Positions 24,104 through 47,671 of a stretch of DNA of 64,000 bases are shown here, piece by piece. The stretch covers positions 62,001 to 126,000 of the forward strand of contig NZ_ML133858.1 of assembly GCF_003994255.1 (NCBI RefSeq), read 5' to 3'. Positions within the stretch are counted from its first letter, which is position 1; the number at the start of each line of letters is the position of its first letter. The DNA is from Brachybacterium paraconglomeratum. GTDB lineage: Bacteria > Actinomycetota > Actinomycetes > Actinomycetales > Dermabacteraceae. The position numbers and the translations under genes were made by a program. Under the pieces are notes generated by a model. It had not been told where the DNA came from. It did not search any database and saw nothing but the letters and a program-made list of their open reading frames with translations.

Positions 24104-24275
24104 TGCGCCTCCTGCTGGGGGTTCCGTGTCGCCTGCGCGGCGCGACCCCAGTGTACGGAGGCGCCGCCTCCTCTCCGCGACGTCCGGGGGACGGAGCTGT
24201 GAAGGTTCTCGGGAGGTTCTCCGAATCCTGGCCCGCTCCCCCGTGCCCCTCGGGCGAGTCGGACGCCGCGCCCGC

Positions 24276-24281
24276 TACTCT
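24276..24281 (+). promoter_or_regulatory. -10 element for the LCP gene
   Basis: TACTCT in the 284-base divergent gap would start an approximately 100-base leader before the LCP GTG. I see no good -35. The rest of this gap shows no other clear feature. Confidence 0.35.
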
Positions 24282-24387
24282 GGCGAGCGCCGCAGGCCCG
24301 GAGCACCCCACCGAGCACTCTCCCCATGCCCGGATCCGATCTGCCGCAGACCGCCGGGACAGGGTCCCGGCCGGGAAGGAGACCGCT

Positions 24388-29199: not shown

Positions 29200-30327
29200 T
29201 CAGCCGGCGACGACCTTCCGGGTCACCTCGATGACACGCTCGACGTCATGGTCGGTCAGGCCAGGGAACATCGGCAGCGAGATCTCGCGGCGGTAGTAGT
29301 CCTCCGCCACGGGGCACATCCCGCGCTGGTAGCCGAGGTCCTCGAAGACCGGGTGCCAGTAGGCGGGGATGTAGTTGACCTGCACCCCGATGCCCTGCTC
29401 GCGCATGGCCTCGAAGATGGCGCGGCGCCGCTCGGCGGGGACGCGCAGCGGGTAGAGGTGCCAGGCGGGCGCCGCCCCCTCGGGCACGCCCGGGATGTCG
29501 ACACCCTCGAGGTCGCCGAGCGCCTCGTCATAGGCCTTCTTCACCTCGGCACGGCGGGCCACGAACGCATCGAGGCGCGCGAGCTGGCTGGTGCCGAGCG
29601 CGCAGAGCACGTCCGGCAGGCGGTAGTTCAGCCCGAAGCTGTGGACCTCCTGGTGCCAGGGGCCCTCGTCGGGATAGCGCTGCACCGCCTTGTCGCGCAC
29701 CAGGCCGTGGTTCTTGAACGCCCGGGCGCGGGCGGCGAGGTCCGCGTCGGCCGTCACGACCGCACCGCCCTCGGCGGTGGTGAGGTTCTTCGTGGGGAAG
29801 AACGAGTAGGTCGTGAGGTCGGCGAGGGAGCCCACCGGCGCGCCGTCCTGGGTAGAGCCGATGGAGTGCGCGGCGTCCTCGAGGAACAGCGCGCCCTGCC
29901 GGGAGGCGATCTCGCGCAGGGCCGTGCCGTCGACCGGCACGCCGGCGTAGTCGACGCCCGCGATGACCTTGGTCCGCTCGGTGACCGCGGCCTCGACGGC
30001 GGCGGGGTCGAGGTTGCCGGTGGCCGGGTCGACGTCCGCGAACACGATCTTCGCACCGTGCAGGGCGGCGCCCGCGGCGGTCGCGACGAAGGTCAGCGGG
30101 GTCGTGACGACCTCGTCGCCGGGCTCGATGCCGGCGGCGGCGTAGGCGACGTGCAGCGCCGCGGTGCCGGAGGTGACCGAGACCGCGTGCTCCACGCCCG
30201 CGCGCTCCGCGATCGCCGCCTCGAACCGGTCGACCTCGGGGCCCGTGGTCAGCCAGTCGCTGCGCAGCGCCGCCTCGACGGCCGCGATGTCGTCGGGCTC
30301 GATGGACTGACGTCCGTACGGCAGCAC
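29200..30327 (-). CDS. pseC: UDP-4-amino-4,6-dideoxy-N-acetyl-beta-L-altrosamine transaminase (PseC)
   Basis: The product is 375 residues. It is a DegT/DnrJ/EryC1 PLP aminotransferase starting LPYGRQSIEPDDIAAVEAAL. It has VTSGTAALHVA, LEDAAHSIGS and the PLP lysine in FFPTKNLTTAEGGA (Lys180), then FGLNYRLPDVLCALG. The opening and the NYIPAYWHPVFEDLGY tail are characteristic of PseC. It transaminates the 4-keto sugar made by PseB. The GTG start lies one base after the pseB stop, so the two form a tight pair. Glutamate is the usual amino donor of the family. Confidence 0.92.
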   Translation of the reverse strand: MLPYGRQSIEPDDIAAVEAALRSDWLTTGPEVDRFEAAIAERAGVEHAVSVTSGTAALHVAYAAAGIEPGDEVVTTPLTFVATAAGAALHGAKIVFADVDPATGNLDPAAVEAAVTERTKVIAGVDYAGVPVDGTALREIASRQGALFLEDAAHSIGSTQDGAPVGSLADLTTYSFFPTKNLTTAEGGAVVTADADLAARARAFKNHGLVRDKAVQRYPDEGPWHQEVHSFGLNYRLPDVLCALGTSQLARLDAFVARRAEVKKAYDEALGDLEGVDIPGVPEGAAPAWHLYPLRVPAERRRAIFEAMREQGIGVQVNYIPAYWHPVFEDLGYQRGMCPVAEDYYRREISLPMFPGLTDHDVERVIEVTRKVVAG

Positions 30328-30328
30328 C

Positions 30329-31318
30329 TCAGATCCCTCCCTCGATGATGTCCGCGATCTCCTGCTGGGTGTACCACTGGTCGTTGGAGTCCGAGCGGAA
30401 GAAGAACCCGGGCTCGACCGGCACGGCGCCCTCGGGGGCCTTGTAGCCCCAGGTCGCGAGGTCGGGCTGGATGATGAAGTACTTGCCGTCCTCGATGATG
30501 ACCGCGCGGCGGCCCTCCTCGGGGCTGATCATCTCCTCGTGGAGCTTCTCGCCGGGACGCAGGCCCACGTCGACCATCTCGGCGCCGGGCACGACGGCCT
30601 GGGCGAGGTCGGTGACCTTCATGGAGGGGATGCGCGGCACGAGCAGCTCGCCGCCCTGCATGAGCTCGAAGGTGTCGATGACCATCTGCACGGCCTGCGG
30701 CAGGGTGATGAAGAAGCGGGTGCAGGTCATGTCCGTGATCGGCAGCGGCTTGCCCTCCTCGCCGAGGCGGCGGAAGAAGGGGATGACCGAGCCGCGCGAG
30801 CCCATCACGTTGCCGTAGCGCACCACGGCGAAGCGGGTGTCGTAGCTGGCGGCGTAGTGGTTGCCCGTGATGAAGAGCTTGTCGGCGGTGAGCTTGGTGG
30901 CGCCGTAGAGGTTGATCGGGCTGGAGGCCTTGTCGGTGGACAGGGCCACGACCTTCTTCACGCCGGCGTCGATGGACGCCTCGATGACGTTCTGGCTGCC
31001 GAGGATGTTGGTCTTGACGAACTCGAAGGGGTTGTACTCCGCGGTGTCGACCTGCTTGAGCGCGGCGGCGTGGACGACGTAGTCCACGTCCTTCAGCGCA
31101 CGGGCGAGGCGGCGCTCGTCGCGGATGTCACCGATGAACCAGCGCAGGCGGGGGTCGTTGCCGAACTGGTTGCGGACCTCGTACTGCTTCAACTCGTCCC
31201 GCGAGAAGACGACGACCCGTCGCGGGTTGTGGTTGTCGAGCACTTCACGCAGGAAGGCCTTGCCGAAGGAGCCGGTCCCACCGGTGATGAGGATGGAGGC
31301 ACCGTTGAGGAGCGACAT
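30329..31318 (-). CDS. pseB: UDP-N-acetylglucosamine 4,6-dehydratase (inverting), PseB
   Basis: The product is 329 residues. This extended SDR has LITGGTGSFGKAF (about 9-21) for NADP, then STDKASSPINLYGATKLTADKLF with Tyr138 and Lys142, and VVRYGNVMGSRGSVIPFF. LRPGEKLHEEMISPEEGRR is typical of PseB/FlaA1. It performs the first pseudaminic acid step, 4,6-dehydration with C5 epimerisation of UDP-GlcNAc. The ATG at 31318 has an AAAGAGA site. The leader is about 50 bases from the palindromic promoter shared with the divergent cytidylyltransferase gene. Confidence 0.94.
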   Translation of the reverse strand: MSLLNGASILITGGTGSFGKAFLREVLDNHNPRRVVVFSRDELKQYEVRNQFGNDPRLRWFIGDIRDERRLARALKDVDYVVHAAALKQVDTAEYNPFEFVKTNILGSQNVIEASIDAGVKKVVALSTDKASSPINLYGATKLTADKLFITGNHYAASYDTRFAVVRYGNVMGSRGSVIPFFRRLGEEGKPLPITDMTCTRFFITLPQAVQMVIDTFELMQGGELLVPRIPSMKVTDLAQAVVPGAEMVDVGLRPGEKLHEEMISPEEGRRAVIIEDGKYFIIQPDLATWGYKAPEGAVPVEPGFFFRSDSNDQWYTQQEIADIIEGGI

Positions 31319-31372
31319 GCAGATCTCTTTCGTCGACGGGGTTGGGGCGGCACCCGGGCGACCCGGGACGCG

Positions 31373-31389
31373 CGTGCCATTATGGCACG
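31373..31389. promoter_or_regulatory. Palindromic divergent promoter of pseB and pseF
   Basis: Perfect 8-bp arms (CGTGCCAT and ATGGCACG) flank a single T. The centre gives CATTAT on the plus strand (31378-31383), six bases before the leaderless pseF GTG. It also gives CATAAT on the minus strand (31384-31379), which would start pseB mRNA near 31371. It can be read as one symmetric -10 region serving both directions, or as an operator. Confidence 0.55.
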
Positions 31390-32127
31390 GTGACCGATAC
31401 ACGAACCGTCGCAGTGATCCAAGCTCGTACAGGCTCCTCCCGCCTCCCCGGGAAGGTGCTCCGGCCGCTCGGCGGCCGACCGGTCCTGGGGTGGATGGTG
31501 CGGGCCGCCCGCGCCGCCTCGGGCGTCGAGGACGTGGTGGTGGCGACGTCCACCGCACCCGGGGACGACGCCGTCGCCGAGCTCGGCGAGGAGCTGGGCG
31601 TGCAGGTGGTCCGCGGCAGCGAGGACGACGTCCTCTCCCGCTTCGTGCTCGCCCTGGAGGAGACCGGGGCCGATGCGGTGGTGCGCCTGACCGCGGACTG
31701 CCCGCTGGCGGACCCCTCGCTGATCTCCGCCGTGGTGGGGATGTGGAAGGCCGATCCCTCGCTGGACTACACGGCGACCACGCTGGTGCGCACGCTGCCC
31801 CGCGGCCTGGACGTCGAGCTCGCCTCGCGGGACGCGCTGCTGACGGCCGATGCGGAGGCCGAGAGCTTCCACCGCACGCACGTCACCTCCTATCTCTACG
31901 ACTCCAAGCGCTACTTCCGCACCATGGGCCTGGTCGTCCAGCCGGCCGCGAACGACCTGCGGGTGACCCTGGACACCGTCGAGGACGGCGAGATGCTCGA
32001 CGCCGTCGTCGCCGAGCTCGGGGATCGCGCCCCGGCGTGGCACGAGGTGGTGGACCTGCTGCGCTCGCGCCCCGACATCACGCGGATCAACGCGGGCGTG
32101 CGCCAGAAGAAGCTGGCCGACGGATGA
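31390..32127 (+). CDS. pseF: SpsF-type cytidylyltransferase, probable CMP-pseudaminic acid synthase
   Basis: The product is 245 residues. VAVIQARTGSSRLPGKVLRPL is the nucleotide-binding loop of the COG1861/SpsF nucleotidyltransferases. VVRLTADCPLADPSLI supplies the metal-binding DCP, and RVTLDTVEDGEML is a late family motif. Classical PseF belongs to the related CMP-NeuAc synthetase family, but this is the only nucleotidyltransferase in the locus and is coupled to pseG-pseH, so activation of Pse with CTP is the most economical role. The GTG at 31390 is supported by the -10 six bases upstream. The stop overlaps the next ATG by four bases. Confidence 0.8.
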   Translation: MTDTRTVAVIQARTGSSRLPGKVLRPLGGRPVLGWMVRAARAASGVEDVVVATSTAPGDDAVAELGEELGVQVVRGSEDDVLSRFVLALEETGADAVVRLTADCPLADPSLISAVVGMWKADPSLDYTATTLVRTLPRGLDVELASRDALLTADAEAESFHRTHVTSYLYDSKRYFRTMGLVVQPAANDLRVTLDTVEDGEMLDAVVAELGDRAPAWHEVVDLLRSRPDITRINAGVRQKKLADG

Positions 32128-33623
32128 CCCACGTCGCGATCCGGTGCGACGCGACCCCGTCGGGAGGCATCGGCCACCTGGTGCGGGCGCTCTCCGTCGC
32201 CGACGCCGCCCGCGCCGCCGGGCACACCGTGGTGGTCGCCGGCTCGATCGAGGCGCCTCTCGCCCGGCACCTGTTGGCCGAGTCCGGTCTCGAGGTGACC
32301 GCGGCGCCCGAGGACCTCGGGATCCTCGCCGCCGAGCAGGGCGCGAGCGTCGTCCACGTCGACGACTACACGATCGGGGCCGACGCCCGGGACCAGGTGC
32401 GCGCCGGCGGCGCGCTGCTGTCCTCGATGGAGGACGGCGCCTTCGGCCGCCGCCCCGCCGACGTCGTCGTCGACTCCACGATCCGCGCCGAGCGGATCGG
32501 CCGCCCCGAGGACGGCAGCGGCGAGGTGCTCCTCGGCATCGCCTACGCCCCGATGCGCGCCGAGGTGCGCGCCGCGCGGGAGAAGCGTGTCGACGAGGAC
32601 CACGACGTCAGCCGCGGCGCCCGGGTGCTGATCGTCATGGGCGGCACCGACGCGACCGGCGCCGCCGGGACCCTCGCCGCCGTCTGCGCCGCCGCCGAGG
32701 GCGTCGCGCACGTGAGCGTCATCGCGCCCGAGCACGGCTGGGACGCGGTCCGGGCCGAGGCCGGGGAGGACGTCGAGCTGCTCGCCCCCTCCCCCGCCTT
32801 CCTCGAGCGGGCGAGCGCGGCGGACCTCGTCGTCAGCGCCGCGGGCACCACCGCCTGGGAGCTGGCCTGCATCGGCGTGCCGAGCCTGCTGGTCGCGGTG
32901 GTGGAGAACCAGCGCGCCGGCTACGAGGCAGCCCTCGCCGAGCGCATCGCCCGCGGGCTCGGCACCCTCGAGCAGGTGCGCGCCGACCGCTCCGCGGCGA
33001 CCGCGGAGGTGGAGCGGGCGATCTCGGACCTGCGCGCGATGCGCAGCTGGACCCCGGTGGGCCGGGAGAAGGTCGACGGCCACGGCGCGGAGCGGATCGT
33101 CGCCGCCTGGGACGCGGCGCTCGCGCGACGGATCGGGACGGCGGAGGCGCCGGTCGCGGCGCGGCCCGCGACCCCGTCGGACTCGCCCCTGCTGCTGCGC
33201 TGGCGCAACGACCCGGAGACCCGGAAGGTCTCCCGCGACTCCGATCCGGTGCCGTGGGAGTCCCACTCCGGCTGGTACGCGCGGACGCTGGAGAACCCGT
33301 CCCGCGAGCTGTACGTCGTCGAGCGGGGCGGCGCGCCCGTCGGCACCGTGCGCTTCGACGCGCTGGAGGGCGCGTCGGCGGGCGAGGAGTGGGAGGTGTC
33401 CATCACCCTCGCCCCCGAGGCGCGCGGTCACGGGCTCTCCCGGCCGGTGCTCGCCGCCGGCGAGGCGGCCTTCGGGGCGCGTCACCCCGGCGCCGTCGTC
33501 GTCGCCGCGATCCTTCCCGACAACCTGCCGTCCCAGCGGCTGTTCGCCGGGGCCGGCTACGTGCTCGATCCGGATCGCGACGACGGCGAGTTCGACGTGC
33601 TGGTCAGACGAGATCCCAGCTGA
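32124..33623 (+). CDS. PseG-PseH fusion: UDP-sugar hydrolase plus N-acetyltransferase
   Basis: The product is 499 residues. Residues 1 to about 335 are PseG: IRCDATPSGGIGHLVRALSVADAA with the catalytic-type GIGH motif, HVDDYTIG, LIVMGGTDATGA and VVSAAGTTAWELACIGVP. From about 345 a GNAT domain follows (SPLLLRWRNDPETRKVSRD, GTVRFD, EWEVSITLAPEARGHGLSRPVL, LPDNLPSQRLFAGAGY), matching PseH. PseH acetylates the 4-amino group and PseG then removes UDP, so two consecutive steps are fused. ATG overlaps the preceding stop. The last 20 bases overlap antisense with the end of pseI. Confidence 0.9.
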   Translation: MTHVAIRCDATPSGGIGHLVRALSVADAARAAGHTVVVAGSIEAPLARHLLAESGLEVTAAPEDLGILAAEQGASVVHVDDYTIGADARDQVRAGGALLSSMEDGAFGRRPADVVVDSTIRAERIGRPEDGSGEVLLGIAYAPMRAEVRAAREKRVDEDHDVSRGARVLIVMGGTDATGAAGTLAAVCAAAEGVAHVSVIAPEHGWDAVRAEAGEDVELLAPSPAFLERASAADLVVSAAGTTAWELACIGVPSLLVAVVENQRAGYEAALAERIARGLGTLEQVRADRSAATAEVERAISDLRAMRSWTPVGREKVDGHGAERIVAAWDAALARRIGTAEAPVAARPATPSDSPLLLRWRNDPETRKVSRDSDPVPWESHSGWYARTLENPSRELYVVERGGAPVGTVRFDALEGASAGEEWEVSITLAPEARGHGLSRPVLAAGEAAFGARHPGAVVVAAILPDNLPSQRLFAGAGYVLDPDRDDGEFDVLVRRDPS

Positions 33624-34677
33624 GCGGCGTCCCGCGCTCGACGTCCTTCGCGAAGGTGCGGCCGAGGACCACGTCGAGAAAGCGCGGCTCGAGGCCGCCC
33701 GCGGGGCGGATCGAGCGGACGTTCTCCGCGGTGATCTCCTCGCCGGCGCGCACGTCCTTCACCACGAACAGCGAGCGGCGCAGGCGCTGGGACTCGGCCT
33801 CGGACTTCGTCGGGCCGACGTGCACCTCGCCGAGCGCGAGCCAGGCGGCGTAGGACTCGTCGACCAGGGCCTTCAGCTCCTCAGGCTCGAGGGAGAAGTC
33901 GGAGTCGACGCCGCCGTCGGCGCGGCGCAGCGTGACGTGCTTCTCGAGGATCGCGGCGCCGAAGGCGACGGCCGCGACGCTCACGCCGATGCCCTTGGTG
34001 TGGTCGGAGAGGCCGCCGACGACCTTCCAGGTGTCGGCGAGCACCGGGATGGTGCGCAGGTTCGACGCCTCGGCGGTCGCCGGGTAGGAGGAAGTGCAGC
34101 CGAGCACGGCGATCTGGTCGTTGCCCTCGGCGCGGAGGGTCTTGACGGCGAGGTCCACGTCGCCGGCGTCGGCGGCGCCGGTGGAGAGGATCACCGGCTT
34201 GCCGGTGCGGGCCACCTTGCGCAGCAGCGGGATGTCGCCGATCTCGAGCGACGCGATCTTGTAGACCTCGGCGCCGAGGTCCTCCAGCAGGTCGACGGCC
34301 GTGTCGTCGAAGGGGCTGGAGAACGGGATCATGCCGTGCTCGCGGGCGCGGGCGAAGATCGCCTCGTGCCACTCCCACGGGGTGTGCGCCTCCTGGTAGA
34401 GGCTGTAGAGGTTCCGTCCGCCCCACAGGCCGTGGCTGTCGGTGATGCGGAAGGCGGGGCCGTCGGCGTCGATGGTGATCGTGTCCGCCGTGTAGGTCTG
34501 GAGCTTGATCGCCGGGGCGCCGGTCTCCGCGATCGCGTCGACGATCGCGAGGGCGCGGCCGAGGTCGCCGTTGTGGTTGCCGGACATCTCCGCCGCGACG
34601 AAGGGGGCATGGGCCTCGCCGACCTGGAGGTCGCCGATCTGCAGTGACTTGGGGGTACCGTTCTGGCTGAAGGACAT
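33604..34677 (-). CDS. pseI: Pseudaminic acid synthase (PseI)
   Basis: The product is 357 residues. A NeuB-type barrel (about 20-285) has FVAAEMSGNHNGDLGRALAI, APAIKLQTYTADTITID, and LWGGRNLYSLYQEAHTPWEWH, the last being diagnostic of PseI rather than NeuB or LegI. It then has KIASLEIGDIPLL and LSDHTKG. A C-terminal SAF/antifreeze-like domain (about 293-357) follows. It condenses 6-deoxy-AltdiNAc with phosphoenolpyruvate to give pseudaminic acid. TACGAT six bases before the ATG implies a leaderless message of its own. It is convergent with and overlaps pseGH. Confidence 0.95.
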   Translation of the reverse strand: MSFSQNGTPKSLQIGDLQVGEAHAPFVAAEMSGNHNGDLGRALAIVDAIAETGAPAIKLQTYTADTITIDADGPAFRITDSHGLWGGRNLYSLYQEAHTPWEWHEAIFARAREHGMIPFSSPFDDTAVDLLEDLGAEVYKIASLEIGDIPLLRKVARTGKPVILSTGAADAGDVDLAVKTLRAEGNDQIAVLGCTSSYPATAEASNLRTIPVLADTWKVVGGLSDHTKGIGVSVAAVAFGAAILEKHVTLRRADGGVDSDFSLEPEELKALVDESYAAWLALGEVHVGPTKSEAESQRLRRSLFVVKDVRAGEEITAENVRSIRPAGGLEPRFLDVVLGRTFAKDVERGTPLSWDLV

Positions 34678-34683
34678 GCGCCG

Positions 34684-34689
34684 ATCGTA
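34684..34689 (-). promoter_or_regulatory. -10 element of pseI (leaderless)
   Basis: TACGAT on the minus strand ends six bases before the pseI ATG. It allows pseI to be transcribed separately from the upstream glycosyltransferase genes. Confidence 0.5.
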
Positions 34690-34715
34690 CCGGAGCAGGT
34701 GGCGGCGCCCGCCCG

Positions 34716-36914
34716 TCAGCCGTGCCGCGCGCTGCGGGCGAGACGCTCCAACCGGGTCCGGCAGTCCGCCAGGACGAGGTCGACGCACTCCTGATAGGGG
34801 GCGGTGAAGTCGATCCAGGGCGGGGCGATGATCGTCGAGTTGCGCGAGAGCTGGTCGACGGAGGTCCTGCCTCCCCCGGTGCGGTAGAGGTAGTTCTCCG
34901 GCGAGAAGCCCAGCAGCCAGGTCGGCGTGCCGACGGCGGCGGCGAGCTCCATCGGGACCGTGCTGATGCCGATCACGAGGTCCATGGAGGCGACGTGCGC
35001 CGCGAGCCCCTCGAGGTCGTCGAAGAGGTCGACGTCCTGGATCTGCCGGATCCCGTGCTCCTCCAGGTACGCCCTCTCCACGTCGTCGGTCGCGTGCTGG
35101 ATCGACCAGAACTCGACCCCGTCCACGTCCAGCAGCGGGGTGAGCTGCTCGAGGCCGATGTACATCATCCGCCGGGTGCCGCCGGAGAAGTGGCTCCTCC
35201 ACACCAGGCCCACCTTGAGCCTCCCCTCGGCGCGCGGCACGGCCCGGGCTGGGTCCGGGACGAGATAGGCGCCGGTGTCCTGGCGCGGGAGCACGCCGGC
35301 GAAGCGGTTGAAGGTGAGGTTCTGGCCGTAGGTGACGTGGTCGGCGGCCTCGACGTAGGGGTCGCAGTGGGCGGGCAGGTGGCTGGCGAGGATGAAGTCG
35401 CTGTACCGGCCGTCGTAGACGGGGTTCAGGTGGCCGCGGATCCGACGGGCGACGTCGACGAACTCGATCGTGGGGAAGCTCCGCTCGAGCAGGGTCCGCA
35501 GCCGCGGGTCGCAGGTGGCGGTGACCCGGTAGCGCGCGGCGAGCTCGCCGAGGTGCTGCGCGCCGCGGATCTCGTCGCCCACGCCGTCGTCGGTGATGAG
35601 GAAGAGGGAGGAGCCGGGATCCTCGGGCAGCGGCGCGGCGTTCAGGAACCTCTCACCGAGGTCGCGCTCGAGGATCCGCCACGGCGGCGCGGTGCGGCGC
35701 ACGCTCCAGGCCTTCAGGTACTGGCCCGTGAGCATGAGGGTGGTCCCCTGGTCTCGGTCGCCGCGGCGGATCCCGGCGCGACCGGCGCTGGCGCTGCCGT
35801 AGCCGATCTCGTTGCGCAGGTCGATGACGGTGCGGTCGCCGTCCAGGCGGGCGTAGACGAGCCGGAGCCCGGTCGCCGCGACGGTGTAGGTCGGGTCCTC
35901 GACGAGGACGGAGTGGAGCAGGTCCGCGGCGTCGCGGTGCTCGCCCTGCTCCATCGCGATCAGCCCGCGGCCGCAGCGGGCGCCGAGCATCGTCTCCGGC
36001 ACGCCGCGGAGGGTGGGGACCAGGGCGTCGAGCTCGGGCAGGAGGTCCTTCACGGTGAGCACGCGCAGGAGGGAGTCGCGGGTGTGCACGTCCATGGCGT
36101 CGAAGCGAGAGGTCGTCGCCTCGAGGCACGCCTCGTAGAAGTCCTGGTGCGCGGGGCTCTGCCCCCGCAGGTCGTGGGCGAGGGCGAGCACGCCCGGCAT
36201 GCCGCGGTGCTCGGCGGGGACGGCGTCGAGGTCCGGGACGAGGGCGCCCGAGTCGAAGCGCAGCGCGGCCTCGGCGACGGCGCGGTCGCGCAGCCCGTGC
36301 TCGGACAGCTGCCGCTCGACGAGGGTGCGGGCGGTGTCAGCGTGCCCGTGGGTGACGAGGTCGTGGACGTAGCGCAGGTTGTCCTTCCAGCGGAAGGGGT
36401 CCTCGTCCCCGTCGGCGAAGAAGTCTCTCACGTCGATCTTCTCGAACGCGGCCGTGCGGAGGCGGAACTCGCGGAAGCGCAGGTCCCGGAGGGTGGCGCC
36501 GGGGGCGCGGGAGCTGCCCTCGAAGGTGCGCAGCGTGCGGAGCGCCGCCACCTTCTCGGCGGCGGGGAGCCCCGAGAGCTGGATCCACTCGGCGAGCCTC
36601 ACGCGCTGGGCCGGGGTGAGGTCCCGATCGGCGAGGGAGCCGAGATGCGGGGCCAGGAGCAGATCGGCGCGCAGCCCCTCCTGGCCGCTGAGCAGGGTGA
36701 CGCCGACGAAGCACTCGTCCAGCAGGTCCAGCCCGTCCGTGTCGATCCCGTCCAGCAGCGCGGCGGCGGAGCGGAAGTTCCTCATCCGTGCGAGATGGCG
36801 AGCCCCGGTCAGGACAATGTCCAGGTCGGTCCCCGGGTCGTTCGCCGCGACGAGCGCGCGGCGCTCCGAGAGATCGAGCAGCGGTCTCACGACACGTGTG
36901 AGCTTGCGGAGCAC
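34716..36914 (-). CDS. TPR-like helical protein with C-terminal GT-B glycosyltransferase domain
   Basis: The product is 732 residues. About 1-420 is an all-helical repeat region (TPR-like, for example GLIAMEQGEHRDAADLLHSVLVEDP). From about 430 a GT-B-like domain follows: LFLITDDGVGDEIRGAQHLGELAARY, VTATCDPRLRTLLERSFP, LKVGLVWRSHFSGG and MDLVIGISTVPMELAAAVGTPTWLL. The latter pattern resembles the heptosyltransferase/TPR-GT class. Lying between the giant glycosyltransferases and pseI, it probably acts in the same polymer, but donor and acceptor are unknown. GTG start, weak AGGTGG site. A TAGGAT -10 lies within the preceding 111-base gap. Confidence 0.72.
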   Translation of the reverse strand: MLRKLTRVVRPLLDLSERRALVAANDPGTDLDIVLTGARHLARMRNFRSAAALLDGIDTDGLDLLDECFVGVTLLSGQEGLRADLLLAPHLGSLADRDLTPAQRVRLAEWIQLSGLPAAEKVAALRTLRTFEGSSRAPGATLRDLRFREFRLRTAAFEKIDVRDFFADGDEDPFRWKDNLRYVHDLVTHGHADTARTLVERQLSEHGLRDRAVAEAALRFDSGALVPDLDAVPAEHRGMPGVLALAHDLRGQSPAHQDFYEACLEATTSRFDAMDVHTRDSLLRVLTVKDLLPELDALVPTLRGVPETMLGARCGRGLIAMEQGEHRDAADLLHSVLVEDPTYTVAATGLRLVYARLDGDRTVIDLRNEIGYGSASAGRAGIRRGDRDQGTTLMLTGQYLKAWSVRRTAPPWRILERDLGERFLNAAPLPEDPGSSLFLITDDGVGDEIRGAQHLGELAARYRVTATCDPRLRTLLERSFPTIEFVDVARRIRGHLNPVYDGRYSDFILASHLPAHCDPYVEAADHVTYGQNLTFNRFAGVLPRQDTGAYLVPDPARAVPRAEGRLKVGLVWRSHFSGGTRRMMYIGLEQLTPLLDVDGVEFWSIQHATDDVERAYLEEHGIRQIQDVDLFDDLEGLAAHVASMDLVIGISTVPMELAAAVGTPTWLLGFSPENYLYRTGGGRTSVDQLSRNSTIIAPPWIDFTAPYQECVDLVLADCRTRLERLARSARHG

Positions 36915-36965
36915 GGCACCACCTGGGATTCGGGTCGAGCACCGGTCGGCTCGTCACTGAGCCTG

Positions 36966-36971
36966 ATCCTA
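36966..36971 (-). promoter_or_regulatory. -10 element for the TPR-glycosyltransferase gene
   Basis: TAGGAT on the minus strand would give an approximately 45-base leader to the GTG at 36914. It suggests an internal promoter in the leftward glycosyltransferase cluster. Confidence 0.35.
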
Positions 36972-37025
36972 TCCGGGTGATCCGCGCGTCACCTGCGAGA
37001 TCGGAGGCCCGGCCGGAGCCGCCCC

Positions 37026-40382: not shown

Positions 40383-40435
40383 TCGGGCGACAACCTTCCT
40401 CAGGTCACGGGGTCAGGAGAGAGTGCTCCACGGGG

Positions 40436-41449
40436 TCACCGTGCGGGGACGAGCGGCTCCGGCAGGAGGGCGTCGCGCGCGGGGAGGCGCGGGAGCCGGC
40501 CGGGCAGGTGGCTGAGCGGGTGGCGCAGGAACACCAGCGGGGACTGGCCGGAGCCGGCGTCCTGCGCGCCCTCGGTCCGCTCCACGAGGCCGAGCACGGC
40601 GCCCGCCTTCCGCAGCGGGGCACCGCCCCAGTAGCTGAGGAACGGACCGGCGGTGCTGCGGTCCCAGCCGAGCGCCGCCCGCAGCGCCGCCGGGGACAGC
40701 AGGTGCTCGTGGCCGAGCTCCGCCAGGGCGACGGCGCGCCGGGTCGCGTCCTCGGCGGTGTCGTCGTGGAACTCGGGCCACAGCTCGCGCGTGCGACGGG
40801 AGACCTCGGTGCCGAGGGAGCCGATGGCGAGGTCGCCGCCGTAGATCGCGGTGGGCGTGCCCTCGGCGGCGGCGTAGACCACTGCGGTGGAGAGCTGGTT
40901 GGACACGACGCGCCGCGCCCCGCGGACGAGGCGGAGGATCCGGCCGAGGAACTGCGGGTCGCGCCGCTCCCCCGCGCTGACGACGCGGTGGCCGTGCTCG
41001 CTCCAGACCTGCACCTTCTCGGGGCGGTCGAGGTCCTCGGGGTGGAGGCAGACGAGCGAGGGGCCGTCGCGCTCGGCGAGCTCGCGGGCGAGGTCCGCGT
41101 CGTCGTGCTGGAGCTTGACGAGGCGGGTGTCGTGGACGGGGAAGGCGACGGTCGCCCCGAGATCGGCGACGGTCTCGTCGGCCGTCAGCGCGCTGAGGTA
41201 CAGGAAGGGCGCCCCGATCGGCGTGGTGAGGAAGGGGTCCTCGGCGGGGTCCCAGCCCCGCGCCCGGTGGCTCCACACCAGACGGCGCGCGGTGCGGGGA
41301 AGGCGCGCGAAGTCGGAGAAGTGCACTAGCGAGGGCGAGCGGACGGTCCAGCCGTGCTGGAGGAGCCCGTGGAGGTGGCGGACGGAGTCGAGCCCCGCGT
41401 GGAGGGCGAGGGCGGCGCTGTGCCCGTAGTAGTGGTTCTGGATGTCCAT
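40436..41449 (-). CDS. Putative glycosyltransferase between the giant paralogues
   Basis: The product is 337 residues with no membrane segment, opening MDIQNHYYGHSAALALHAGL. Visible features are VCLHPEDLDRPEKVQVWSEHGH with a possible HP motif (His136), then FLGRILRLVRGARRVVSNQLSTAVVYAAAEGTPTAIYGGDL. The latter resembles the C-terminal donor half of GT-B and capsule-type transferases. I do not recognise the family. It lies five bases after gene B and 53 before gene A, so it is co-expressed with both and probably acts on the same polymer. Confidence 0.6.
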   Translation of the reverse strand: MDIQNHYYGHSAALALHAGLDSVRHLHGLLQHGWTVRSPSLVHFSDFARLPRTARRLVWSHRARGWDPAEDPFLTTPIGAPFLYLSALTADETVADLGATVAFPVHDTRLVKLQHDDADLARELAERDGPSLVCLHPEDLDRPEKVQVWSEHGHRVVSAGERRDPQFLGRILRLVRGARRVVSNQLSTAVVYAAAEGTPTAIYGGDLAIGSLGTEVSRRTRELWPEFHDDTAEDATRRAVALAELGHEHLLSPAALRAALGWDRSTAGPFLSYWGGAPLRKAGAVLGLVERTEGAQDAGSGQSPLVFLRHPLSHLPGRLPRLPARDALLPEPLVPAR

Positions 41450-41454
41450 GGGGC

Positions 41455-44400
41455 TCAGCCGAAGATGTCGTGTCGGGAGGCGGGGACCTCGTAGGGGACG
41501 AGGTCGTGCGGGGTGCGCGCGAGGCGGAACAGGCCCGACTCGACGTCCTGCAGGGTCTCCTCGAAGCCGGGCACCTCGATGACGTAGGTCGGGCAGCCCA
41601 GCGCCGCGGACTCCCACAGCGAGGTGGAGAACGTCCCGACCGCCATGACGGAGCGCGTGATGGTGGTCAGCGTGTCCTCCTCGGCGATGTCGACCGACTC
41701 CTCGAGCCCGCTCGCGGCGAGCTCCTGTCCGATGATCTCGCGCTGCGCGGGATGCGGGGCGATCACGACACGCAGCTCGGGGCGCTCCGCCACCAGCTCC
41801 TGCACGAAGGTCAGGATCCGTCGCAGCACCCTCGGCTGCGAGATGACGCAGACGTCCCAGCGCTTCTCCTCCGTGCTGGGGGCCTCGATCGCGGCGGTCA
41901 GCTCGGGCTGCTGCCGGGGGACGACGACGTGCTCGTCGTAGACGTTGGTGCGCTCGGCCCAGAAGTCCGACCAGGCGTAGAAGCGGGTGGCGCCGTAGTG
42001 CGGCTTCTGCCCGAACCAGAACGAGGGGGCGTAGTGGCTGGTCAGCGCGTACTGGATGTCGGAGACCCGCGCCCCCGAGCGAGCGGCGGCGGCGCCGATG
42101 CCGGCCCACCAGTGGCTGGAGGCGATCAGCACCTCCTCCGGCTGCACGCGCTCGAACACGGGCGTGAAGAACTCCCGCTCCGCGAGGAACTTCGCGAGGC
42201 GGTTGCGCAGGTGATCGCCCAGGTCGATGCGGATCCCGAGCGCCTGGGTGAGCGCGGCCTCGAAGGGGCGCGCATCGACCTCGGGCACGCGGAGGTGGGA
42301 CCAGCGCTGACGCCAGTCCTTCTTCCACTGCGTGAACTCCGCGAACGGGTAGACCATGTTCGTCTCGTCCACGTCCGGATAGCCGTCGGCGCCGGGCTGG
42401 ACGACGAACAGCGTCCTGTCGTTCACGAAGGGGGCGGTGCGGTAGCCGCTCTGGCCGCGTCGCACGTAGTCGAAGACGACGGTGTCCGCGGACGGCGCGG
42501 TGGTGAGCCGCTTGCCGCCGGTGTAGACGTCCTGGACGGTGCCCTGCGCGGCGGCGAGGGGTCCCCACAGGCCGGCGGCCTCGGCCAGCTGGATCACCAG
42601 CGCCGAGCGTCCGAGCTCCCACAGGTGCACGCCGTCGGCCGTGGTGATGTCGAACAGCCCGTGCTCGCGCTCGGCGGCGCAGAACCGCTCGAACATCTCG
42701 CCGTAGGACCAGGGCGGGGTGATCCGGCGGCGGGAGGCGCCGTCGCGCAGCTCGAGCCAGTCGTACTCGCCCTGGATGCGGACCGTGGGCCGCTTCTCAG
42801 TGCCGGCGTTGGTCACCTGGACGCCGCCGCCGGAGTTGATCGGGGCGCCGAAGGAGTCGACGCCGCCGGTGACAGGGAACCAGGGGTGGCGGGGGATCTC
42901 GCGGTGGGTCGGCGCGGGCTCGGTGACCGCGACCGCCTTGACGAGCATCGAGGCGGCGGTGGAGGCGTAGGTCCTCGCGACCCGGCCGACGGAGCCCATC
43001 GCCTGGACGGGGAGCCCCACGGCCCTGCCGAGGCCGCCGAGGGCTCCCGCGGCGCCGCCGCTCGAGCCGGCGGGGGCCGACGGGGCCGACGGGGCGCCCG
43101 CTGATGCGTCGGGGGTCGACAGGTCGGCCTGCGCGTCGGGGTCCGATAGGGCGGCCGGTGCGTCGGCGGCAGCCGGCGGCACCTCGGTCGACGGGGCCCC
43201 GGCATCGGGCCCGGGCTGCGCCTCGGCCGACGGCTCGGAAGCGGACGTCGACCCCGTCTCGGCCTCCTGCGCGGTGCGCTCGGGCGCCCCGTCGGCAGGC
43301 GGCGTCTCGTCGCCCGAGGGCTTCGCGCCGCGGAGCGTGGGCAGGGAGGGCATGAGCTGGCGCAGCTTCCACGTCACGGCGTCGACGCCCTGGGCCCCGA
43401 ACTCGGCCAGGTCCGACGGGGTGGTGCGCCAGGAGACGTGCTTGGCCCCGCCGCGCGAGGCGAGGAGCGTGTCGGCGACCGGCGGCGTGCCGTCGCCGTA
43501 GTCGGCGTCGCGGCGCAGCCGGGGCAGCACGGGGAGCGTCCCGCCGTTCGCGGGGCCGGCGAGGTAATGGCGGTCGGTGCCGCCGGGGATCGTGCTGAAG
43601 GAGACGACGCCGCGGCTCCCGACGGGGAACTCGATCACGGTGGCCCCGCCCACGCGGCGCACCGCGGGGCGGAGGATGCGTTCGCCGTCGTCCACCTGGA
43701 CGTCGTGCAGGGCCGTGGCGGAGCGCACGGTGACCTGGTGCGTCCGGCGCAGGCCGGAGCGCGTGACGCGGTGGCTGATCGCGCCCGCGGGCACGGGCTC
43801 CTCGCCGTCGGTCGAGAACACGGCCGAGAGGTCGAGGGAGCGGCCAGGGGGCGGACCGATCACGGCGCCGTACTTCGCCACGACCGCCTCGGCGGAGAAG
43901 CGCTCGTCGAAGATCTCGCGGGCGCGTCGGCCGAAGCGCTCGCGCAGCTGTGCGTCCGCGACCAGCTCGTCGAGCCGGGCGACGAGGGCGTCCACGTCGC
44001 CGACGGGGACGATGAATCCGCTGCTGCCGTCCTCGACCGCATCCCGCGGCCCGAACTCGTAGTCGTAGGTGACGGTGGGCAGACGGTGGTAGGCGGCCTC
44101 GAGGAGCGGGTACCCGAACCCCTCGGACAGCGAGGTCATCAGCACGATGTCGGCGCTGGAGTAGACGTCCTGCTCGGTGCCGAAGCCCGGGATCGACACC
44201 CGGTCCCGCAGCCCGAGCGAGTCGATCAGCTCGTTCACCGCGATGAAGTACGGGTTCAGAGGGCTGATGTTGCCCCACAGGGTCAGGCGCACCGAGTCGT
44301 CCTCGAGCCGGGAGAGGGCCCGGATCGCGTCGAGCTGGTTCTTGCGGTGCTGGAACGAGGCCGGCAGCACGATCTCGACGCCGGTCCGGGGCTTGCGCAC

Positions 44401-44994
44401 CACCTGCGCGGGATGGTGGATGTTGGGGATGCACACCACGTCCGCGGCGTCGAAGCGCGAGGCGAACTGCTCGTTCAGCCCCTCGGCGACGGTCTGGACC
44501 CGGTCGATCACCTCCCGCGCCTCGTCCACCAGCGCCCAGAGCTCGTCGTGGTGGCGGTAGTCGCCGTGCACCTGCAGCAGGGTGCGGGGGCGCCGCTCCT
44601 GACCGGCGAGGGCGCGTTGGAAGGCGAGGGCCTGGACCGGGGTCGTGAAGATCACGGTGTCCTCGGCGGTGAGCTCCTCGTTGAGCTGGCGCAGGGCCGC
44701 GAGCTGATCGGCGGTGAAGGCGTACGGCGTCGCGTAGACGCGCCCGGCGAGGACCGGATGGACGTTCGCGGCGAGCAGCCGGCCGCCCTCGGCGGGCAGG
44801 GTCTGGAGCGCATAGGCGGGGACCCCGGGATCCAGCGGCCAGCGCGGCATGGCGAGCTCGGCGCCGTCCCCCGCCCCCAGGAAGCTCAGGACTGCGAGCG
44901 GATATCCCCCACGATGCAGGGCGTTCGCGGTCTCCACCACGGACTTGTGGTAGCCGGTGGGGCCGGACAGCTCGTTGACGCAGATCAGGATCAT
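41455..44994 (-). CDS. Giant two-domain glycosyltransferase B (paralogue of A)
   Basis: The product is 1179 residues with the same plan as gene A. A GT4 domain (1 to about 390; ICVNELSGPTGYHKSVVET, SLSEGFGYPLLEAAYHRLP) and a beta-rich middle are followed by an Ala/Pro/Ser/Asp-rich disordered linker (about 558-655) that is much longer than in A. The C-terminal domain runs from about 697, with SSHWWAGIGAAAARSGARVSD, VVIAPHPAQ (His1081) and FSTSLWESAALGCPTYV. Both catalytic halves look intact. The two paralogues could add similar sugars in different linkages or to different acceptors. The start is an ATG at 44994. It lies downstream of the GT2 gene in the same direction. Confidence 0.75.
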   Translation of the reverse strand: MILICVNELSGPTGYHKSVVETANALHRGGYPLAVLSFLGAGDGAELAMPRWPLDPGVPAYALQTLPAEGGRLLAANVHPVLAGRVYATPYAFTADQLAALRQLNEELTAEDTVIFTTPVQALAFQRALAGQERRPRTLLQVHGDYRHHDELWALVDEAREVIDRVQTVAEGLNEQFASRFDAADVVCIPNIHHPAQVVRKPRTGVEIVLPASFQHRKNQLDAIRALSRLEDDSVRLTLWGNISPLNPYFIAVNELIDSLGLRDRVSIPGFGTEQDVYSSADIVLMTSLSEGFGYPLLEAAYHRLPTVTYDYEFGPRDAVEDGSSGFIVPVGDVDALVARLDELVADAQLRERFGRRAREIFDERFSAEAVVAKYGAVIGPPPGRSLDLSAVFSTDGEEPVPAGAISHRVTRSGLRRTHQVTVRSATALHDVQVDDGERILRPAVRRVGGATVIEFPVGSRGVVSFSTIPGGTDRHYLAGPANGGTLPVLPRLRRDADYGDGTPPVADTLLASRGGAKHVSWRTTPSDLAEFGAQGVDAVTWKLRQLMPSLPTLRGAKPSGDETPPADGAPERTAQEAETGSTSASEPSAEAQPGPDAGAPSTEVPPAAADAPAALSDPDAQADLSTPDASAGAPSAPSAPAGSSGGAAGALGGLGRAVGLPVQAMGSVGRVARTYASTAASMLVKAVAVTEPAPTHREIPRHPWFPVTGGVDSFGAPINSGGGVQVTNAGTEKRPTVRIQGEYDWLELRDGASRRRITPPWSYGEMFERFCAAEREHGLFDITTADGVHLWELGRSALVIQLAEAAGLWGPLAAAQGTVQDVYTGGKRLTTAPSADTVVFDYVRRGQSGYRTAPFVNDRTLFVVQPGADGYPDVDETNMVYPFAEFTQWKKDWRQRWSHLRVPEVDARPFEAALTQALGIRIDLGDHLRNRLAKFLAEREFFTPVFERVQPEEVLIASSHWWAGIGAAAARSGARVSDIQYALTSHYAPSFWFGQKPHYGATRFYAWSDFWAERTNVYDEHVVVPRQQPELTAAIEAPSTEEKRWDVCVISQPRVLRRILTFVQELVAERPELRVVIAPHPAQREIIGQELAASGLEESVDIAEEDTLTTITRSVMAVGTFSTSLWESAALGCPTYVIEVPGFEETLQDVESGLFRLARTPHDLVPYEVPASRHDIFG
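41458..42906 (-). repeat. Duplicated C-terminal coding segment, copy 2
   Basis: Partner of 37032-38482: same orientation, about 1.45 kb, starting with the EIPRHPW segment and running to the RHDIFG end in the protein. It ends close to the stop codon; copy 1 has two extra residues (TA). Confidence 0.8.
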
Positions 44995-45023
44995 GGTCCG
45001 CGCAGTCTATCCACGGGCCCCGC

Positions 45024-45818
45024 TCAGATCCGGTTCTTGCGAAGCGCCGCGAGCGCCCCGGTGACCAAGTGCACCGCTGCGCTCGGGACGGACAGCCGCT
45101 CCTGGCGGCGCAGCACCTGCCACACGGCGCGGATCGCACGGGTGCGGTCGGAGGAGTGCGAGTCCGCCTGCGCGGCGCGGTAGAGCGCCAGCGGCTCGTC
45201 GATCCCGGCGGCGGTGCCGCCCTCGCGCAGGATGCTCAGCCACAGCGCGTAGTCCTCGGCCCCGGGGACGTCCGGCATCGTCACCGGTCCCGTGCGCTCG
45301 AGGTCGACCACGGCGGTGAGGTTGCCGATGACGTTGCGGCGCAGCAGACCCTCGCGGGTGAGCTGCGTGGGGACGTGCACGATGCGGCCCTCGGACTCGA
45401 AATCCGCGCCGGTGCCGGCGAAGTCGGCCGACACACGGTGGTAGCCGCAGTACAGAAGTGACGCACCGCTCGTCCGGGCGAGATCGAGCTGCCGCTGCAG
45501 CTTCTCGGGGAGCCACAGGTCGTCCGCATCGCAGAAGGCGAGGAAACGCCCGGTGCCGCTGGCGATGCCCGAGTTTCGGGCCGCGGCCGGGCCGCCGCTG
45601 CGCTCCCGGCGGATGATCCGCACCCGCGCATCTCCCTCCGCGAGCTCCTCGGCGATGCGCACGGTGTCGTCCGTGGAGGCGTCGTCGACCACCACCAGCT
45701 CGAGGGAGCGGAAGGTCTGATCGAGTACGCTTGTCACCGATTGACGCAGGGTCCGCGCACCGTTGAACACCGGCATCACGACCGTCACCAGCGGAAGCGG
45801 ATCCTTTGCGGTAGTCAC
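45024..45818 (-). CDS. GT2 family glycosyltransferase
   Basis: The product is 264 residues: a compact GT-A domain with VTVVMPVFNGARTLRQSVTSVLDQ, VVVDDASTDDT, the metal motif FCDADDLWLPEKL and PGAEDYALWLSIL as the base/acceptor motif. No membrane segment. It is first in the leftward glycosyltransferase cluster and divergent from the second ABC exporter, so it may start the Pse-polymer repeat or its primer. The GTG at 45818 is eight bases after a consensus-like TATGAT -10, indicating a leaderless or near-leaderless message. Confidence 0.88.
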   Translation of the reverse strand: MTTAKDPLPLVTVVMPVFNGARTLRQSVTSVLDQTFRSLELVVVDDASTDDTVRIAEELAEGDARVRIIRRERSGGPAAARNSGIASGTGRFLAFCDADDLWLPEKLQRQLDLARTSGASLLYCGYHRVSADFAGTGADFESEGRIVHVPTQLTREGLLRRNVIGNLTAVVDLERTGPVTMPDVPGAEDYALWLSILREGGTAAGIDEPLALYRAAQADSHSSDRTRAIRAVWQVLRRQERLSVPSAAVHLVTGALAALRKNRI

Positions 45819-45826
45819 GACGCACG

Positions 45827-45832
45827 ATCATA
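45827..45832 (-). promoter_or_regulatory. -10 element of the leftward glycosyltransferase cluster
   Basis: TATGAT, the closest -10 to consensus in the window, lies on the minus strand eight bases before the GT2 GTG. It probably drives the 45818-37026 gene group. Confidence 0.6.
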
Positions 45833-45888
45833 CCGACGCCCGAGGACGGCCCAGCCCGCCGCGCCCGTCCGGCTAGAGGAGAACGAAC

Positions 45889-46815
45889 TTGGCAGATCAG
45901 AAGGCGGAGGTACCGCTCGCTCCGCGCCTGACATCCGCGGAGTCAGAAGCGCTCGCCGCGCGGGCGGGACTGGACGAGATGGGGGTCCGGCCCCCGCTGG
46001 GCCGCTACATCAAGCAGGTCTGGCAGCGGCGGTCGTTCATCTGGAACCTCTCCGCGTCCCGCGCGTACTCCCGCAACCAGGGCTCGTACCTGGGTCAGGC
46101 CTGGGCGATCCTGCGCCCCGTGCTCGACGCGGCCGTGTACGTGATCATCTTCGGCTTCCTGTTCCACTCCAGCGCGCCCGGCATCGAGAACCGCGCGGCG
46201 TTCATCACCATCGGCACCTTCACCTACTCCCTGTTCCAGACCTCGGTGATGTCGGGCCTGAACTCGGTGCCCACCAACCTGCAGCTGATCAGGTCGCACA
46301 AGTTCCCGCGCGCGGTCGTGCCGCTCGCGACGGTGATGACCGAGACCGTGCTGTTCGCCCCGATCCTGGTGGCGATGACGGCGGTCGTGCTGGTGACCGG
46401 CGTGCTGCCGGGCATGGGCGTGGTCGTGCCGACCTGGTCGTGGCTGACGCTCCCCTTCGCGGCCGTGCTGCTCGCGGTGTTCTCCGCCGGCGTGGCCATG
46501 TTCTTCGCGCGCCTGGGCGCGCGCGCCCCGGACATCGCCAACGCCATGCCCTTCATCCTGACGCTGGGTCGCTACGCCTCCGGCGCCATGTTCCTGATCT
46601 CGGCCATGGTCCCCGACGAGCTCTGGCTGAAGCCGCTCCTGCTGCACCAGCCGGTCGCGATCTACCTGGAGCTGTTCCGTGCGGCGTTCGGCAACGAGCC
46701 GCTGATCCCGATGACAGCGGGCCTCTGGCTCGAGGCCACCGCATGGGCGGTGGGCGTCTTCGCCATCGGATTCCTGTACTTCTGGCGCGCAGAGGAGACC
46801 TACGGTCGTGACTGA
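45889..46815 (+). CDS. Second polysaccharide ABC exporter permease (Wzm/TagG type)
   Basis: The product is 308 residues. A cytoplasmic head leads to the coupling segment LSASRAYSRNQGSYLGQAWAILRPVLDAAVYVIIFGFLF and six membrane helices of an ABC-2 polysaccharide/teichoic acid exporter. The TTG at 45889 is chosen because AGAGGAGA stands seven bases upstream. It is divergent from the GT2 gene and overlaps the ATPase gene by eight bases. It is only distantly similar to the galactan Wzm in this window. Its position next to the giant glycosyltransferases and Pse genes makes their product the likely substrate. Confidence 0.9.
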   Translation: MADQKAEVPLAPRLTSAESEALAARAGLDEMGVRPPLGRYIKQVWQRRSFIWNLSASRAYSRNQGSYLGQAWAILRPVLDAAVYVIIFGFLFHSSAPGIENRAAFITIGTFTYSLFQTSVMSGLNSVPTNLQLIRSHKFPRAVVPLATVMTETVLFAPILVAMTAVVLVTGVLPGMGVVVPTWSWLTLPFAAVLLAVFSAGVAMFFARLGARAPDIANAMPFILTLGRYASGAMFLISAMVPDELWLKPLLLHQPVAIYLELFRAAFGNEPLIPMTAGLWLEATAWAVGVFAIGFLYFWRAEETYGRD

Positions 46816-47671
46816 GGACATCGATTTCGAGATCGACCCCGAGAACCTCCCGGACCGCGTGGACCGCGACAAGCCGCTGGGCGCGCCGTCGGTGGTGGTC
46901 GACGACCTGCACATCACCTACCGCGTGTTCGGCGCCCGCCGCAGCGGGACCACCAAGCAGCGCGCCTCGCTGTGGGACAAGATGGTCAGCCTCGGCCGCC
47001 CCGACACCGGCCCGATCACCGAGGTGCCCGCCGTGCGCGGCGTGTCCTTCGTGGCCCATCACGGCGAGTCCATCGGCATCCTGGGCACCAACGGCTCCGG
47101 CAAGTCGACCCTGCTGCGGGCCGTGGCGGGGCTGCTGCCGCCGTCCTCGGGCCGGGTGTTCACCTCCGCCGAGCCGGAGCTGCTGGGCGTGAACGCGGCG
47201 ATGCTCCCCCGGCTCACGGGCGAGCGCAACATCATGATCGGCGGTCTCGCCCTCGGGCTGAGCACCAAGGAGGTCAAGGAGAACATCCCGGGCGTGGCGG
47301 ACTTCGCCGAGCTCGGCGACTTCCTGTACCTGCCGATGACGTCCTACTCCTCCGGCATGGCCTCGCGCCTGCGGTTCGCGATCTCGACGATCCGCACCCC
47401 CGAGATCCTCATGATCGATGAGGCCCTCGCCACCGGCGACGCCTCGTTCCGCAAGAAGAGCACCGCCCGGATCGAGGAGATCCGCGGCCAGGCCGGCACC
47501 GTGTTCTTCGTGTCGCACTCGCTCGCCTCCGTGCGGGCGATGTGCACGCGCGCGCTCTGGATCGACAAGGGCGTGCTGGTGGCCGACGGCGACGTCGACG
47601 AGGTCGCGGACCTCTACCACGCCTACGTGGAGGGCCGCACCGACGCCTCCTCCGGCGCGAAGCTGAAGTAG
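46808..47671 (+). CDS. Second polysaccharide ABC exporter ATPase (Wzt/TagH type)
   Basis: The product is 287 residues. An N-terminal extension precedes VVVDDLHITYRVFG. The ABC motifs are Walker A GTNGSGKS, signature SYSSGM, Walker B EILMIDEALATGD and switch VSHSL. It ends just after the nucleotide-binding domain, without a carbohydrate-binding domain. It works with the permease encoded by the overlapping gene (GTG start, eight-base overlap). The pair would export an undecaprenyl-linked polymer across the membrane. A perfect hairpin terminator follows. Confidence 0.92.
   Translation: MTEDIDFEIDPENLPDRVDRDKPLGAPSVVVDDLHITYRVFGARRSGTTKQRASLWDKMVSLGRPDTGPITEVPAVRGVSFVAHHGESIGILGTNGSGKSTLLRAVAGLLPPSSGRVFTSAEPELLGVNAAMLPRLTGERNIMIGGLALGLSTKEVKENIPGVADFAELGDFLYLPMTSYSSGMASRLRFAISTIRTPEILMIDEALATGDASFRKKSTARIEEIRGQAGTVFFVSHSLASVRAMCTRALWIDKGVLVADGDVDEVADLYHAYVEGRTDASSGAKLK

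Follow-up and report, generated by a model that had tools for sequence, protein, structure and literature searches.

A predicted pseudaminic acid polymer locus with its own exporter in Brachybacterium paraconglomeratum, and a candidate nonulosonic acid transferase family

Nonulosonic acids are chiefly familiar from the capsules, lipopolysaccharides and flagella of Gram-negative bacteria, and the question raised by the locus described here is what genes for one of them, pseudaminic acid (Pse), are doing in the actinomycete Brachybacterium paraconglomeratum, next to glycosyltransferases and an exporter. The locus lies at 29200-47671 in a 64,000-nucleotide stretch of contig NZ_ML133858.1, called the window below, where 12 genes fill the interval bounded by pseC (3′ end at 29200) and wzt (end at 47671). 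A preliminary description of this DNA had listed pseB, pseC, a nucleotidyltransferase gene, pseG-pseH, pseI, genes for four unusual glycosyltransferase-like proteins (A to D), a GT2 glycosyltransferase and a Wzm/Wzt pair, and gene calls based on codon-position GC composition, reading frames and translation confirmed all of them (Table 1). We consider it fairly likely that these genes form a self-contained unit leading from uridine diphosphate N-acetylglucosamine (UDP-GlcNAc) to cytidine monophosphate (CMP)-activated Pse, polymer assembly and export by an ATP-binding cassette (ABC) transporter, with C as nonulosonate transferase and probable attachment by a LytR-CpsA-Psr (LCP) ligase. In such a scheme UDP-GlcNAc would be converted to CMP-Pse in the cytoplasm by PseB, PseC, PseH, PseG and PseI and then by the cytidylyltransferase. 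The chain would be assembled in the cytoplasm on a lipid by GT2, one or two bifunctional giant glycosyltransferases (B and D) and C, of which C most likely transfers the nonulosonic acid, while in each giant the GT4 half would add one of two kinds of sugar and the C-terminal half a residue common to both. The lipid-linked chain would leave through the unit's own Wzm/Wzt and would probably be joined by the LCP ligase to the wall or peptidoglycan; donors, order of addition, lipid carrier and polymer structure are predicted in this scheme.

The identities of PseB, PseC and PseI are firm, all three exceeding the curated NCBIfam cut-offs, and the unit is inherited as one within the genus. PseI scored over its cut-off in 7 of 38 Brachybacterium genomes, and both the C-terminal half of the giants and an orthologous Wzm (82-100% identical) were found in the same seven (Fisher p 8e-8 for this co-occurrence, uncorrected for kinship); a Wzm-like match of some kind occurs in 37 of the 38, the best beyond the orthologues being 45% identical. 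Across a wider sample of the order (149 genomes), PseI is present in 7; four of these also have the giant C-terminal half, which gave one weak match elsewhere. The same gene set was recovered from other Dermabacteraceae, as the preliminary description had suggested looking for, including B. epidermidis (L029) and B. nesterenkovii (L033). These two recur in our collection as L038 and L039, and L035 and L062 are likewise one genome, so that the samples overlap.

Gene order is conserved as well. Six sister loci (L028 to L033) were compared as 20-kb stretches, of which L028 ends in pseB, L031 after pseF and L032 inside wzm. As far as these reach, they share the order wzt, wzm, GT2, giant, C, pseI, pseH-pseG, pseF, pseB, pseC. 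Wzt adjoins Wzm in all five stretches that extend that far, and a GT2 relative 67-78% identical to that of the window is present in all six. The genes purE/purK flank the unit in five of the six, and a DUF6541 gene in all three that reach the opposite side. L028, L030 and L033 each encode a single giant, whereas the window, L029, L031 and L032 have two. Since the number of giants varies and A is missing or broken in some loci, the minimum shared by the seven loci besides the pse genes is GT2, one giant, C and the exporter.

How the product would leave the cell is suggested by the genes that travel with the pathway. No Wzx, Wzy or flagellar domain was detected in the 28 likely window genes (part of the total) given to Pfam, in agreement with the preliminary description, and Wzm/Wzt is co-inherited with the glycosyltransferases of a unit whose scanned open reading frames include no Wzx or Wzy; both observations point to ABC-dependent export. 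The pair is of the TagGH type in combining an ABC2 permease and an ATPase beside glycosyltransferases, but its scores fall far short of those required by the curated models for teichoic acid, galactan and KpsM (the best NCBIfam match of Wzt, teichoic acid export ATPase, reaches 195.9 of 538) and so is not a member of those equivalogs. Its Wzm was also compared with the permease of the neighbouring galactan-type set (17788-19014) and is not that protein, the two being only 24% identical. In O9a-type systems Wzt carries an extra carbohydrate-binding domain; the Wzt found here, with 287 residues, has no room for one, which makes it probable that no recognised cap determines the length of the chain.

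The claim that a Pse polymer is made and exported is thus upheld by the pathway, by dedicated assembly enzymes and by an ABC exporter co-inherited in the genus, whereas its location in the wall is a prediction. Two observations count against the scheme: the adjacent LCP gene also occurs in all eight Pse-less genomes examined (in two pieces in one of them) and is not Pse-specific, and the Pse unit revealed no enzyme for priming or for a linkage unit. The product might instead be a loose capsule or exopolysaccharide, a reading we regard as unlikely yet deserving serious attention. The ABC exporter, the apparent swap of the sugar cassette described below and the other polymer genes found at a similar place in Pse-less genomes are all capsule-like. 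There, the LCP and GT2 genes precede a DUF6541 gene with 41-59% identity to that of the window, beyond which other genes lie; in the two genomes examined (L122 and L123) their products include GT4 enzymes, an acyltransferase, a UDP-GlcNAc 2-epimerase-type enzyme, an ABC protein and a protein of flippase type. No purE was detected in the 20-kb stretches of these eight genomes, so an empty site is not demonstrated. Against a loose capsule stand the LCP ligase only 3.5 kb away and the fact that the described actinomycete nonulosonate polymer, that of Streptomyces coelicolor, is a wall glycopolymer (PMC7831098).

That polymer, a teichulosonic acid of 2-keto-3-deoxynononic acid (Kdn) and galactose encoded by SCO4873-SCO4882 (PMC7831098, PMC13011467), is the nearest described kind, being a nonulosonic-acid wall glycopolymer of an actinomycete; it differs in its sugar, Kdn, and the likeness is one of polymer type, not of gene comparison. 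Another Gram-positive system is the sps locus of Bacillus subtilis, in which a UDP-linked nonulosonate route ends in a putative cytidylyltransferase and SpsF is needed for transfer to the forespore surface (PMC7439481). There, however, the sugar is legionaminic acid (Leg), it is placed on spores, and no ABC exporter is described in the text consulted. Our literature search, which covered few subscription journals and is weak in this respect, found no report of Pse in Brachybacterium or of an actinomycete gene cluster for a Pse wall polymer.

Which protein would add the nonulosonic acid to the chain? C appears to be the best candidate and the one with the widest support, its family tracking PseI in actinomycete families in which the fetched flanks hold no giant. 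C of the window matched no Pfam family at E<=0.1, 3 of 62 members of its family match DUF1937 (best E 0.0066), and no convincing relative was found in the PDB by sequence. A scan of named genomes with the C alignment, from which the best 80 of 86 loci were taken, returned among others Brachybacterium, Helcobacillus, Humibacter, Arthrobacter, Pseudonocardia, Nocardioides and Actinoplanes. Within the flanks fetched for these 80, giants are present at only 6 loci, PseI or PseB relatives that count as Pse-like at the identity thresholds we set (55 and 60%) at 33, and a NeuB-like gene only at 10.

Co-occurrence at the level of whole genomes is closer. When 50 of the 51 C loci without a nearby PseI match were followed up by genome search, 46 of 48 genomes proved to have a PseI that scores over the cut-off. 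C was found in 9 of the 149 genomes of the order sample, namely all 7 with PseI and two without it (G080 and G129), each of which carries a non-Pse NeuB on the same contig. Among 121 Micromonosporaceae genomes, C is present in 28 and PseI in 27, all 27 of the latter having C; the 28th C genome (G605) carries scraps of PseI at two contig ends. C without PseI over the cut-off was accordingly seen in 2 of 142 genomes in the first sample and 1 of 94 in the second. On the same contig in Micromonosporaceae, the start of a C copy lies within 30 kb of PseI in 25 of 27 cases and within 12 kb in 21. C was also found in all 4 PseI genomes among the 10 Brachybacterium of the order sample and in the seven loci. 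On present genome searches, what is new here is this C family tracking PseI within several actinomycete groups. As a separate observation, some Micromonosporaceae (G551, G591, G605) hold five C matches, both near to and far from PseI; those of G605 comprise three full copies and two end scraps. Plasmids yielded a single C record, from Nonomuraea, with 31% identity over 72% of the query.

Several results count against a general role of this kind for C. At 37 of the 80 loci no nonulosonate gene was present in the fetched flanks, and the two of 48 genomes that lack PseI, both Arsenicicoccus, contain C together with another NeuB; by contig and coordinates G080 is one of them, so that these exceptions overlap. 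Within Brachybacterium C was sought in the 10 order-sample genomes and the seven loci rather than in all 38 genomes. In a sample of the whole phylum (296 genomes), PseI occurs in 11 genomes, C in 3 and both in 2; since 9 of the 11 PseI genomes are thus without C and one of the three C genomes (G445) has no PseI over the cut-off, C is one solution among others for Pse genomes, and the link holds in certain groups and not everywhere. The co-occurrence might also only mirror kinship; it does hold inside one family sample, but the counts are not corrected for the tree.

Some of the exceptions bear on the donor. In Humibacter RRB41 and Arthrobacter pascens, LegB-, LegC- and NeuB-like genes, under the LegB and LegC cut-offs, lie beside C, and on the C tree the loci labelled non-Pse require three changes; these labels are our own, and only those of L042 and L047 were checked with NCBIfam and those of L046 and L055 by genome search. 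The simplest account would be that C transfers nonulosonic acids, with a donor switchable between Pse and a Leg-type sugar.

The giants offer a second candidate for the same step. B and D share one layout, in which a GT4 domain is followed by a middle domain, a linker of low complexity and a C-terminal half some 480 residues long (in B, GT4 at about residues 1-390 and the C-terminal half at 635-1118). In three of five genomes with two giants the C-terminal halves are more alike than the GT4 halves, with 87 against 64% identity between B and D of the window, 98 against 79% in L029 and 88 against 64% in L031; the corresponding values are 73 and 79% in L032, and 68 and 67% in the Humibacter locus L041. 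Two types of GT4 half can be told apart in Brachybacterium, a D type (D of the window, the first of L031, L030 and L033) and a B type (B of the window, both of L029, the second of L031, both of L032, and L028). These two classes, together with the greater likeness of the tails in three of five genomes, suggest that the GT4 halves add variable sugars of two kinds and the tail one constant residue; alternating addition by the giants, as proposed earlier, is a conjecture. Two side observations concern the same genes: the likeness of the C-terminal halves in those three genomes (41455-42903 and 37026-38480 in the window) is probably due to gene conversion, and the second giant of L032 (8345-14350) is interrupted, a gene with domains of a Mu-type transposase and an integrase lying between its GT4 half and the remainder.

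The C-terminal half carries HP and STS motifs at columns invariant in 10 members, which we take to be those of CMP-dependent GT-B sialyl- and Kdo (3-deoxy-D-manno-octulosonic acid)-transferases, and weak GT-B matches (Pfam Glycos_transf_1 in 4 of 10 members, best E 0.0032). KpsC/KpsS and the polysialyl- and K13 Kdo-transferases likewise have HP and S/T motifs, but the giant C-terminal half has no PDB match by sequence, hits being at chance level only. This half could itself be a second nonulosonate transferase. A stronger version, in which Pse is added by the tails while C attaches a different sugar or serves for capping or as an accessory factor, strikes us as about as improbable as a loose capsule: the invariant motifs, the presence of the half in exactly the seven PseI genomes of the genus and the high identity of paired tails in the window, L029 and L031, as expected for one shared donor, speak for it. 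On the other side, three of the seven PseI genomes of the order sample have C but not this half, L042 has it beside LegB/LegC-like genes, and the within-genome likeness of tails fails in L032 and L041. C is the candidate that we prefer. A relationship between C and the giant C-terminal half is not claimed, profile comparison giving a probability of 1.2%, which is not significant.

Protein A raises the possibility that Pse is attached by the unit to a protein, secreted or at the surface, A being a transferase like FlmG, the flagellin Pse transferase of Caulobacter, which is reported to combine TPR and GT-B parts (PMC7591256). A of the window matched no Pfam family at E<=0.01; its homologues match TPR_19 in 4 of 4 (best E 0.0038) and Glyco_transf_9 in 2 of 4 (best E 0.045), and a PDB search gave nothing usable or weak matches only. 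This layout is of the kind reported for FlmG, but A is accessory, the likeness is one of layout alone, and no flagellar domain was detected in the reading frames scanned. The stretches of L028 and L029 yielded no A, and L030 has it in broken pieces; with 3 of 7 loci thus lacking an intact copy, it is ruled out as a core enzyme, whereas GT2, a giant and C persist. A Maf domain was not detected among the reading frames scanned with Pfam, and a transferase of the FlmG/Maf type is not conserved with the Pse genes. A dedicated Wzm/Wzt, moreover, would be expected for a polysaccharide and not for cytoplasmic protein glycosylation. Protein glycosylation is on these grounds improbable, and export of a Pse polymer remains the reading we prefer.

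The sugar itself is assigned with unequal security, and here too some scores count against Pse: PseF (TIGR03584) reaches only 34.4 of the 205.7 bits of its NCBIfam cut-off, PseG 98.7 of 153.55 and PseH 27 of 93.1. The intact motifs earlier ascribed to the whole pathway are thus firm for B, C and I, while F, G and H are recognised by distant likeness and position. The sub-threshold scores lower the assignment of the F, G and H steps as judged from sequence, not the presence of PseB, PseC and PseI. The closest solved structure to PseB is the UDP-GlcNAc C6 dehydratase 2gn4 (353 bits; CapE is next with 236), that to the cytidylyltransferase is the cytidylyltransferase 6oew, and cytidylyltransferase and GNAT domains were both detected among the genes of the Pse locus. 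That the product is another bis-amino nonulosonic acid, such as a Leg isomer or the 8-epimer of Pse, would fit the low scores of F, G and H but is the least probable of the alternatives, given PseB, PseC and PseI over their cut-offs and the proximity of PseB to 2gn4. Elsewhere in the same genome (contig C12, L037 10323-12584), a 753-residue protein with CBS, NeuB, SAF and AP_endonuc_2 domains contains a NeuB-type synthase that scores below the PseI cut-off and perhaps represents a second nonulosonic acid system.

Comparison of the sister loci at the DNA level suggests that the sugar genes have a history of their own. For pseB, pseF, pseGH and pseI, the window is 97.2-99.4% identical to L029 and 95.6-98.9% identical to L032, while A (L032 only), B, C, D, GT2 and wzm are only 69-82% identical to their counterparts in L029/L032 (for wzm of L032 over just 141 bases). 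The high-identity stretch extends over 29300-34690 of the window and corresponds to 12897-18393 in L029, where pseC (96.5%) lies inside it, and to about 1640-5710 in L032, where pseC is only 83.7% identical and the high identity ends near the start of pseI. No jump that large is seen in the remaining sister loci, though their pse genes are more conserved than the rest, pseB most (93% in L028). A recent transfer of the sugar cassette between species by homologous recombination is probably the explanation. It is a tentative proposal, to which we give somewhat less than an even chance, that C founds the main nonulosonate transferase family (for Pse and some Leg-type sugars) of Actinomycetes, in varied loci, that the sugar cassette is swapped independently of a conserved assembly and export cassette, and that paired giants represent two interchangeable GT4 heads with a shared tail. 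Together with a Pse polymer unit in Brachybacterium, the C family would give a sequence handle on the enzymes that place Pse in Gram-positive surface polymers, testable with purified protein, and the apparent swap is a natural experiment on the exchange of surface sugars between species.

Table 1. Genes of the Pse unit and neighbouring features, in window coordinates (scores in bits)
Feature	Coordinates	Strand	Evidence
pseC, UDP-4-amino-4,6-dideoxy-N-acetyl-altrosamine transaminase	29200..30327	-	NCBIfam TIGR03588 438.5, cut-off 423.5
pseB, UDP-GlcNAc 4,6-dehydratase (inverting)	30329..31318	-	NCBIfam TIGR03589 463.6, cut-off 407.75
CMP-sugar synthetase (cytidylyltransferase) at the pseF place	31390..32127	+	Pfam CTP_transf_3 102
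pseG-pseH fusion, nucleotide-sugar hydrolase and GNAT acetyltransferase	32124..33623	+	TIGR03590, TIGR03585, Acetyltransf_3
pseI, pseudaminic acid synthase	33604..34677	-	TIGR03586 454.7, cut-off 340.25; Pfam NeuB and SAF
A, accessory protein, 732 aa, weakly TPR- and GT9-like	34716..36914	-	Weak Pfam matches in homologues
B, giant glycosyltransferase, 1118 aa	37026..40382	-	Pfam GT4 in N-terminal half
C, candidate nonulosonic acid transferase, 337 aa	40436..41449	-	Family co-occurs with PseI
D, giant glycosyltransferase, 1179 aa, layout as B	41455..44994	-	Pfam GT4 in N-terminal half
GT2 glycosyltransferase	45024..45821	-	Pfam Glycos_transf_2 121
wzm, ABC exporter permease	45889..46815	+	Pfam ABC2_membrane 41
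wzt, ABC exporter ATPase, 287 residues	46808..47671	+	Pfam ABC_tran; P-loop, SSGM and ILMIDE motifs
Galactan-type set (context, outside the Pse unit): wzt, wzm, GlfT2-like, glf, GT2	17004..24103	-	Pfam
LytR-CpsA-Psr (LCP) ligase (context), possible wall attachment	24088..25719	+	Pfam LytR_cpsA_psr 144
DUF6541 membrane protein, adjoining the Pse unit on the left	26720..29059	+	Pfam DUF6541

Two pairs of genes within the unit overlap in operon-like fashion, the cytidylyltransferase gene and pseGH by 4 bases and wzm and wzt by 8. The right neighbours of the unit are purE, named from its sequence, and purK, identified with Pfam; the DUF6541 gene borders the unit also in L029, L032, L033 and L043. 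The galactan-type set and LCP ligase (17004-25719), absent from the preliminary description, adjoin the Pse unit, so that two polymer ABC exporters stand side by side in this region.

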